This document shows positions 17,835 through 30,252 of a stretch of DNA of 37,782 nt, piece after piece. Within the stretch, counting starts at the first letter, position 1, and the number at the start of each line of letters is the position of its first letter. The DNA is taken from positions 1-37,782 of the forward strand of contig CALMRZ010000020.1 in assembly GCA_937872225.1 (NCBI GenBank). Reading direction: 5' to 3'. The notes under the pieces are model-generated. The model was not told where the DNA came from. It searched no databases and was given only the letters and a program-made list of their open reading frames with translations. The stretch is from an uncultured Spirochaetota bacterium (GTDB lineage: Bacteria; Spirochaetota; UBA4802; UBA5550). Both the position numbers and the translations under genes were made by a program.

Positions 17835-17930
17835 AGCCCCCTCGGGGGTATTCAGAGGGGACTTCGCCACAGGCAGCGCGAACATATCGGCGCATTGGAA
17901 CAAAATAGAAAAACACCAGAGGAGAGGAGA

Positions 17931-18839
17931 ATGGACATCAGCGACATCAGGAAAGTACTCATCATCGGCGGCGGCACCATGGGCAGGCAGATCAGCATCC
18001 CCTGCGCCCTGGCGGGATATAACGTCGTCATCTACGACATCAAGGAGGACGTGCTCAAGAAGGCCCTGGAAGTAATACCGAAGTTCCTGGCCGGATTCGT
18101 GGCCTTCAAGAAGATAACCCAGGAGGAGGCCGACGCGGCAGTGGCCCGCATCAACATCTCCACCAACGCGGAGGAAGCGGCCCGCGACGCGGACATCGTG
18201 AGCGAGTCCGTGCCTGAAGACCCGGAGCTCAAGAAAAAGGTCTTCTCGCAGTTCAACAGGCTCTGCCCGGAGCGCACGGTCTTCACCACCAACACCTCGA
18301 CGCTCCTGCCTTCGATGATAGCGGCGGACACGGGCAGGCCGGAGAAGTTCCTGGCCTACCACTTCCATGACATCCGCATGACCAACGTCGTGGACATCAT
18401 GCCCCACCCGGGCACCGCGCCGGAGACCGTGGCCCTGGTCAGGGCCTTCGCGGAAAAGACCGGCCAGCTCCCCATCATGCTCACCAAGGAGAACCACGGC
18501 TACGTGTTCAACGCCATGATATCGGCCCTCTTCTTCGCGGCCCAGACCCTGGCGTCGCGGGAGGTCGCGTCCGTGGAGGACATCGACCGGGCCTGGATGG
18601 GGGTCACCCACATGCTGATGGGACCCTTCGCCATCATGGACAGCATCGGCACCGACACGGTATACCACATCACCAATTACTGGGCCCAGCGCACCAAGGA
18701 CAAGCAGTCCCTCAAGAACGCCGAGTTCATGAAGAAATACGTCGATGAGGGGCGCCTCGGACAGAAGGTCAAAAAGGGATTTTACGACTACCCGAACCCG
18801 GCCTTCAACAAGCCCGACTTTCTCAAGGGCGCACGATAA
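17931..18839 (+). CDS. 3-hydroxyacyl-CoA dehydrogenase, NAD-binding type
   Basis: A 302-residue enzyme expected to oxidise 3-hydroxyacyl-CoA to 3-ketoacyl-CoA with NAD. The Rossmann fold opens with VLIIGGGTMGRQI, and the SESVPED and TNTSTLLPS segments are typical. The family catalytic His is kept (LAYHFHDI), while the usual Glu of the following strand is Asp (NVVDIMP). The C-terminal domain carries GYVFNAM, DRAWMG and GRLGQKVKKGFYDYP, which fit 3-hydroxybutyryl-CoA dehydrogenases. I chose ATG 17931, which has GGAGAGGAGA upstream; an earlier in-frame start at 17895 does not. The 96-bp gap to the previous gene holds a small CCCCC/GGGGG hairpin (17837-17848). Confidence 0.92.
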   Translation: MDISDIRKVLIIGGGTMGRQISIPCALAGYNVVIYDIKEDVLKKALEVIPKFLAGFVAFKKITQEEADAAVARINISTNAEEAARDADIVSESVPEDPELKKKVFSQFNRLCPERTVFTTNTSTLLPSMIAADTGRPEKFLAYHFHDIRMTNVVDIMPHPGTAPETVALVRAFAEKTGQLPIMLTKENHGYVFNAMISALFFAAQTLASREVASVEDIDRAWMGVTHMLMGPFAIMDSIGTDTVYHITNYWAQRTKDKQSLKNAEFMKKYVDEGRLGQKVKKGFYDYPNPAFNKPDFLKGAR

Positions 18840-18844
18840 TATTT

Positions 18845-18991
18845 GCAGTTTGCTGTTCCTCAGCAAACTGCCAAGCGATACACGGATGTATCGCCGTTTT
18901 TCGAGGAATAATCCGAGAAAAACGCGAGGTTTTGCGAATTCACTTCGCAAAACCGACCCCCTGAAAAACTCCAGGGATGAAGTTTTTCAGG
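18845..18991 (+). repeat. Array of five different tandem hairpins
   Basis: Five inverted repeats follow each other with only 0-5 unpaired bases between them: H1 18845-18871 (perfect 11-bp stem GCAGTTTGCTG, 5-nt loop), H2 18875-18894 (perfect 8-bp GCGATACA, loop CGGA), H3 18895-18924 (13 bp with two mismatches, loop ATAA), H4 18928-18954 (perfect 11-bp GGTTTTGCGAA, loop TTCAC) and H5 18960-18991 (perfect 11-bp CCTGAAAAACT, 10-nt loop). The array begins 5 bases after the hydroxyacyl-CoA dehydrogenase stop and ends before the ribosome site of the SDR gene (GAGGAG near 19002). Stems differ in sequence, so it is not a simple repeat. No coding sequence is plausible across it. Confidence 0.9.
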
Positions 18992-19015
18992 AATAAAAAC
19001 AGAGGAGAAAGCATC

Positions 19016-19780
19016 ATGAAAATTGAATTCAACCTGAAAGGAAAAATAGCTGTGGTGTCCGGCGCGAGCCGCGGCATCGGCGAGTCGATCGCGAAGACCC
19101 TGGCCGCCCACGGCGCAGAGGTGATACTGACGAGCCGCAAGATCGATGCCCTCACCGAAGTGGAAAAGCAGATCATCGCGGACGGCGGCAAGGCAGTTTC
19201 CATCGCCTGCCACAACGGGAAGATGGACGAAATCGCGAACCTCTTCAAGGAGATCGAGGGCCGCTACGGGAAGCTTGACATCCTGGTGAACAACGCCGCC
19301 ACCAACTTCTATTTCGGCGACGTGCTGAACGCCCCCGAAGCGGCCTGGGACAAGACCATGGAGGTTAACCTGAAGGGATACTTTTTCATGAGCCAGTACG
19401 CGGCAAAGCTCATGGTGAAATCGGGCGGGGGAGCGATCGTCAACGTGGGATCGGTAAACGGGATCAAGCCCGCCCTCATGCAGGGCGTCTACTCCATCAC
19501 CAAGGCCGGGGTCATAGCCATGACCAAGTCCTTCGCCAAGGAGCTCGCCCCCTTCAAGGTGCGGGTCAACGCCCTCCTGCCGGGCCTGACCAAGACTAAA
19601 TTCTCATCGGTAATGACGGAGAACGAGGAGCTGATGGACAAGGTTTTACTGCCGATGATCCCGATGCGCCGCGCCGGCGAGCCGGAGGAGATGGCGGGCG
19701 CCGTTCTCTACCTCGTGTCAGACGCCGCGTCCTTTACGACCGGGGCGACCATCGTGGTGGATGGCGGGGCGCTGGCGTAG
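19016..19780 (+). CDS. Short-chain dehydrogenase/reductase (SDR)
   Basis: A 254-residue classical SDR with an N-terminal cofactor loop GASRGIGE, NNAAT, the catalytic Ser in VNVGSVNG, YSITK (Tyr and Lys) and the C-terminal GATIVVDGG. These are oxidoreductases acting on alcohols or ketones with NAD(P). I chose ATG 19016, preceded by GAGGAG, not the ATG 13 codons upstream, which lies inside the last hairpin of the array. It is third in the acyl-CoA cluster and probably handles a hydroxy or keto intermediate; the substrate cannot be read from sequence. It converges with the STAS gene, with 2 bp between the stops. Confidence 0.92.
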   Translation: MKIEFNLKGKIAVVSGASRGIGESIAKTLAAHGAEVILTSRKIDALTEVEKQIIADGGKAVSIACHNGKMDEIANLFKEIEGRYGKLDILVNNAATNFYFGDVLNAPEAAWDKTMEVNLKGYFFMSQYAAKLMVKSGGGAIVNVGSVNGIKPALMQGVYSITKAGVIAMTKSFAKELAPFKVRVNALLPGLTKTKFSSVMTENEELMDKVLLPMIPMRRAGEPEEMAGAVLYLVSDAASFTTGATIVVDGGALA

Positions 19781-30180: not shown

Positions 30181-30252
30181 TACCCCCGGTACGAATCGAA
30201 CGTACGCACATGGCTCCGGAGGCCACTGCTCTATCCACTGAGCTACGGGGGC
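30181..30252 (-). tRNA. tRNA-Arg (anticodon CCG)
   Basis: The minus strand folds as a full cloverleaf of 72 bases without CCA: acceptor GCCCCCG with CGGGGGT (the first pair is G-U), D-arm GCTC/GAGC, anticodon arm GTGGC/GCCAT around the loop CTCCGGA with anticodon CCG (reads CGG), a 4-base variable loop and T-arm GTACG/CGTAC with loop TTCGATT. The discriminator is A. CCA is not encoded and must be added by the cell. A TTGACA (minus strand, 30297-30302) lies upstream, but no good -10 box matches it. Confidence 0.95.

Follow-up and report, generated by a model that had tools for sequence, protein, structure and literature searches.

The repeat bcr1 of Bacillus cereus is a dispersed mobile sequence of about 155 bp with a conserved multi-stem RNA fold; we know of no CsrA-type loops within it. 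Stable transcripts are already known for MITEs, as are sRNAs derived from them (PMC5896051, PMC10969869); the QMITEs are a source of small RNAs (PMC5896051). IS5-family insertion sequences use YTAR as their target (PMC10359306). With regard to post-transcriptional regulation, the SELEX consensus of CsrA is RUACARGGAUGU, obtained from ligands whose stems are mostly 4 bp or shorter, and the hexaloop determined by NMR for RsmE is ANGGAN, in which N is variable (PMC7652899). CsrA of Leptospira binds GGA hexaloops in gel shifts (PMC8668096). In the literature searched, which excluded most subscription papers, no report treats CsrA jointly with MITEs, repeats or insertion sequences.

The window, meaning the whole stretch of 37,782 nucleotides that was analysed, is contig C20 of a 4.69-Mb draft genome (G000) of an uncultured Spirochaetota bacterium. 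Sister genomes of the same genus include the MAGs Spirochaetes bacterium RBG_13_51_14, RBG_16_49_21 and Zod_Metabat.30. A preliminary description of the window had pointed to five adjacent inverted repeats between the stop of a dehydrogenase gene and the ribosome site of an SDR gene, four of them with perfect stems of 11, 8, 11 and 11 bp. The repeats are present as described, with perfect stems in hairpins 1, 2, 4 and 5 and an imperfect one in hairpin 3. The conclusion that the five hairpins form a single, eroded copy of a MITE-like, non-autonomous transposable element of ~150 bp in uncultured Spirochaetota is well supported. The element and its neighbors are laid out as follows.

17895-18839, + strand: upstream gene for 3-hydroxyacyl-CoA dehydrogenase (Pfam PF02737/PF00725), outside the element, with its stop at 18839
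18842-18845, + strand: left-hand YTAR target duplication, surviving as a remnant (TTTG here, TTAG in most copies), from alignment with full copies
18846-19001, + strand: whole element copy of the five-hairpin class (match to model R1 of 161 bits, E 1.6e-48; alignment A1)
18846-18860, + strand: left terminal inverted repeat, CAGTTTGCTGAAAAAC in relatives; just CAGTTTGCTG is retained here, with the loop TTCCT
18845-18855/18861-18871, + strand: hairpin 1, 11 bp, perfect, with a 5-nt loop
18875-18882/18887-18894, + strand: hairpin 2, 8 bp, perfect
18881-18888, + strand: predicted CsrA-type site 1, CACGGATG in GAUACACGGAUGUAUC, hexaloop ACGGAU at 18882-18887 with C-G closing
18895-18907/18912-18924, + strand: hairpin 3, imperfect, 8+3 bp with a 2x2 internal loop
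18928-18938/18944-18954, + strand: hairpin 4, 11 bp, perfect; compensatory changes between subfamilies are clearest in this stem
18960-18970/18981-18991, + strand: hairpin 5, 11 bp, perfect, plus two inner pairs; its 3' arm lies within the right terminal inverted repeat
18972-18979, + strand: predicted CsrA-type site 2, CAGGGATG, hexaloop AGGGAU at 18973-18978 with C-G closing
19002-19007, + strand: Shine-Dalgarno GAGGAG of the SDR gene, read from the sequence, immediately 3' of the element
19016-19780, + strand: downstream gene, SDR / enoyl-ACP-reductase-like (Pfam PF13561/PF00106), ATG at 19016, given as context only

The minimum free energy of the five-hairpin region is -72 kcal/mol, against -33.8 +/- 3.75 in dinucleotide shuffles (z = -10.2; 0/200 shuffles). 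A known RNA family is ruled out, as Rfam gave no match to the element at gathering or permissive thresholds. Elsewhere in the window, a tRNA gene was recognized at 30181-30252 on the - strand (Rfam RF00005, 63.8 bits). The loop of hairpin 5 also contains an ATG (18977-18979), which is in the SDR frame and precedes the likely start by 13 codons.

The evidence for mobility comes from other copies. A DNA search found one full-length copy in the source genome and many further copies within the genus at 78-86% identity; those with five hairpins number at least 16 in the sister genome G004, with a comparable set in G003, and their flanks are unrelated. Sister genomes hold dozens of dispersed copies that have terminal inverted repeats of ~16 bp and 4-bp YTAR target duplications. 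When aligned, the copies end sharply, in TTAG-CAGTTTGCTGAAAAAC on the left and, as the reverse complement, CTAA-CAGTTTCCTGAAAAAC on the right. In the window copy the right terminal ~10 bases (18992-19001; AAACTG+TTAG in other copies) are eroded, leaving the terminal inverted repeats to be seen in the sister copies. Pairing of ends across the genus yielded size classes of 50, 71, 97, 102, 156 (the main class) and 212 bp, of which those of 50-102 bp are deleted forms of the element and that of 212 bp carries two extra hairpins, GGACAGGATGTCC and ACGCAGGATGCGT, for seven in total. The flanking 4-mers are identical in 25/44 copies where 13.7 would be expected (0/5000 shuffles) and are mostly YTAR, with CTAA/CTAA, TTAA/TTAA and CTAG/CTAG among the YTAR-type pairs; a blind search for target duplications that did not use the YTAR frame gave nothing clear. 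Target duplication is thus seen across copies, and the window copy keeps just a remnant of it. As in MITEs, the element is short (<600 bp), free of a transposase gene and dispersed in many copies. The idea that the locus might be a composite of palindromic mobile repeats was right about mobility and wrong about the composite, since the five hairpins belong to one element. Similarly, the stems are not all different as once supposed, because those of hairpins 1 and 5 contain the two arms of one terminal inverted repeat in full copies. The preliminary description mentioned none of three features: terminal inverted repeats, target duplications and CsrA-type loops.

Empty sites were found for related families that have other terminal repeats than the window element. 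At the hom-thrC junction the element is present in G000 and G004 and missing from G001, G002, G003 and G005 (in G003 the junction reads GAAGATTCATTGAGCGCAGGAG), and at the C76 locus it is present in G000 while G004 has uninterrupted sequence (GACCATTAAGGAGG). The window locus has no clear counterpart within the genus. At hom-thrC the insertion (G000:C16:120269-120414, G004:C8:192831-192976) replaces the overlapping or near-overlapping stop and start of the homoserine dehydrogenase and threonine synthase genes of the sisters, and the inserted element has probably broken the translational coupling of the two.

Without a transposase gene the element must be moved in trans, and its ends lead to the IS5 family. 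Contig C52 of the source genome carries a 482-bp relic (L079 53-534) with a perfect CAGTTTCCTGAAAAAC at both ends and a C-terminal piece of a DDE transposase; this IS5-family relic is likely a former source of mobility in the genome. The same terminal repeat precedes an N-terminal transposase half in the sister genome G002, and an identical end is followed by a transposase reading frame of 279 aa on a Latescibacterota contig. Within the genus, halves or relics were found and no intact insertion sequence with the same repeat, so we infer mobilisation by an IS5-family transposase. Elsewhere in the phylum an intact IS5-type element has CAGGCTGCTGAAAAAG at both ends with flanking CTAG, and CAGGCTGCTGAAAAAG ends also occur on the elements of G164, a genome of the same taxonomic family as the host of that intact copy. 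Autonomous partners are therefore represented by partial copies for the identical repeat in the genus and by an intact copy for a related repeat in the phylum. The best matches of the transposase are NCBIfam IS5_4 and IS1182, these for fragments and below curated cut-offs, and Pfam DUF772 with DDE_Tnp_1; together with the YTAR target, this is the combination expected of the IS5 family. Among plasmid-borne insertion sequence relatives, clear matching ends were absent except in one from Rhizobium with TTAACAGGCTGCGGAAAAAGG. In G018 and G023, insertion sequence ends with this terminal repeat lie at many contig breaks, which suggests multi-copy IS5-type elements that assembly left unresolved. Outside Spirochaetota, the Bdellovibrionaceae MAG nzgw169 has elements of 86-178 bp (L149 1147-1270, L158 1264-1441, L177 6490-6575) with the same terminal repeat and other interiors, so the repeat is used by MITEs beyond the phylum.

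The interior of the element is conserved as structure. Among 28 copies, both partners have changed in 16 pairs, where shuffles give 5.8 and sliding gives 4-7, and the compensatory changes are clearest in hairpin 4. Because palindrome correction by template switching can also produce such changes, a function as RNA does not follow from covariation alone. An argument for strand-specific RNA selection from G-U and A-C mismatches was dropped as uninformative, the counts being 30 vs 31 cells with hairpin 2 of one subfamily misaligned in the count. The hom-thrC ortholog offers separate evidence. Its nine interspecies changes comprise seven at unpaired positions, one from G-U to G-C and one in a loop-closing pair; the rates of 2/~99 stem and 7/~31 unpaired positions differ at p = 6e-4. 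Since the changes fall mainly in loops and linkers, the structure of this copy is probably under selection. More telling than the covariation, the same five-hairpin layout recurs with other stems and other ends in the source genome and its sisters (the RAGTGCATCCC type and the hom-thrC type). A covariance model matched 9/46 genomes of the order and 17/393 of the phylum, including at least seven copies in the three-contig genome G164. Matches of this model lean towards the loop motif, as the model contains the loops; the eight fixed positions per loop would contribute, by estimate, at most 16 bits per loop, a minority of the 65-106 bits scored by the best matches outside the order. An expression-balancing structure or structured RNA, as proposed beforehand, is thus borne out in part, through covariation, strand-specific loop motifs and an ortholog that conserves the structure.

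The loops of hairpins 2 and 5 take the form C-ANGGAN-G, almost always on one strand, and this form is constant across families. Across 83 elements, the element strand has 107 occurrences of CANGGANG/CAGGANG and the opposite strand has five. Twenty elements from genomes beyond the order have A(N)GGA in 35/94 hairpin loops forward and 4/87 in reverse, and the share among flank loops is ~6%. No other column among the 146 of alignment A1 varies as much as either N of the hairpin-5 ANGGAN, while the A, the GGA and the closing C-G of that hairpin are nearly invariant. The source genome has an intact csrA adjoining fliW, and it encodes Leu4 and Arg44, which we take to be RNA-contacting residues. The loops of hairpins 2 and 5 match the CsrA/RsmE hexaloop, and CsrA may, judging by sequence, bind them. 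Two features count against this reading: the stems of the element are longer than those of most CsrA SELEX ligands, and just two of the five hairpins contain a predicted site. In G001 a divergent copy lies ~560 bp upstream of csrA (G001:C64:39985-40154; L210 1501-1670), and both of its loops are without the GGA motif.

Placement gives no ground to claim targeted insertion. The positions of young copies reflect where YTAR sites are available; convergent gaps hold 1/60 copies vs 4.5 expected (p = 0.13), and in co-directional gaps 23 sense vs 16 antisense copies do not differ significantly. A preference for insertion before genes was accordingly rejected. The old intact copies (the window copy on C20, those on C76 and C16 of the source genome, G004:C14 and G001:C35) are all in sense, between two genes and no more than 45 nt from the start that follows (5/5), compared with 7/45 young copies (p = 4e-4, the old/young grouping being post hoc and counted by eye). 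This is a suggestion only that old intact copies are enriched in sense just before the next gene.

Several explanations may be weighed against this evidence. That the hairpins arose by local accident, or are stacked terminators, is barely credible. Nothing except the presence of palindromes speaks for either; no U-run follows any of the five stems, which rules out terminators, in agreement with the earlier remark on missing T-runs, and the copies elsewhere exclude a unique accident. It had been said that an accident should show no second copy, no conservation and no covariation, and all three are found. A less extreme alternative, which we consider unlikely, is an ordinary IS5-derived MITE whose hairpins are generic RNA structure, serving RNase III/E processing, stabilisation or operon insulation, and whose GGA loops descend from a master copy and have no binding partner. 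The known MITEs Correia and ERIC act through RNase processing (PMC10969869), every stem here is very stable, and the young copies lack an orientation bias. Such a MITE nevertheless leaves unexplained why C-ANGGAN-G is kept in hairpins 2 and 5, and on one strand, despite differing stems and terminal repeats, and why the N positions are maximally variable.

Two further alternatives accept that the loops matter. In one, many transcribed copies would act in trans as a sponge, titrating CsrA like CsrB/RsmZ with cis effects incidental. Each element has 2-4 predicted sites, and G003 and G004 each contain tens of copies, which recalls CsrB, whose loops repeat CAGGA(U/A/C)G (PMC7652899). The source genome, on the other hand, has few intact copies, the best preserved being single and within operons, and G002 and G005 carry csrA yet have no covariance-model match, making a sponge quite improbable. 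In the other, which we hold to be very improbable, the fixed loops serve another protein or a DNA-level role such as transposition. Since the motif stays conserved while the element is mobile, it could be a target of selection for spreading; the fixed and free positions nonetheless fit the published CsrA/RsmE hexaloop in both hairpins.

The reading that we favor, and regard as probable, is a MITE-like element mobilised in trans by an IS5-family transposase, with a body that forms a five-hairpin RNA presenting CsrA-type loops. It builds on an observed mobility signature, a co-varying structure, a one-strand loop motif, an intact csrA and constraint at one ortholog. An IS5-family DDE transposase would recognise the terminal repeat CAGTTTSCTGAAAAAC, move the element in trans and duplicate a 4-bp YTAR target. 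The body would encode an RNA of five hairpins, or seven in the longer class, with hexaloops of the CsrA/RsmE-bound form, C-ANGGAN-G, on hairpins 2 and 5. Insertion in sense within an operon, as here, would set the hairpins just before the Shine-Dalgarno of the next gene, where a CsrA dimer could bridge both loops and alter the translation or stability of the downstream message; usefully placed sense copies would then be retained. That transcripts run through the element, that CsrA binds them and in which direction the SDR gene responds are predictions made from the DNA. A wider proposal, tentative and somewhat short of probable, is a phylum-wide superfamily with predicted CsrA-binding hairpins as cargo, which would swap terminal repeats to suit IS transposases and place genes under CsrA control or drain CsrA. 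If so, the SDR gene, threonine synthase and an FMN oxidoreductase would have been brought under CsrA control. If true, a mobile element would be spreading the binding sites of a global post-transcriptional regulator, as an RNA counterpart of promoter- or operator-spreading transposons. The proposal makes testable how post-transcriptional regulons such as Csr acquire new members, and offers a sequence handle on CsrA targets in never-cultured spirochaetes.

Among known systems, Correia/NEMIS, ERIC and Coxiella QMITE1/2 resemble the element in being short, non-coding and dispersed, with terminal inverted repeats, target duplications and a stable RNA fold. Unlike them, it has five discrete hairpins in a layout constant across terminal-repeat families and, in two of the hairpins, a fixed loop that appears to be of RNA-protein recognition type. 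The likeness to bcr1 lies in size, dispersal and multi-stem fold. IS5-family insertion sequences share the YTAR target duplication (PMC10359306) and the terminal repeat, and differ in carrying the DUF772 + DDE transposase that the element lacks. Like CsrB/CsrC and RsmX/Y/Z, the element is a hairpin array with GGA in loops on one strand; those are fixed single-locus sRNAs, CsrB with many more sites, whereas the element is mobile, here intercistronic, has 2-4 sites and lacks the Rfam family match of a CsrB/RsmZ-type sRNA. CsrA-regulated leaders such as that of Leptospira flaB (PMC8668096) likewise place a GGA loop near the Shine-Dalgarno, but the predicted site described here is delivered by a transposable element.
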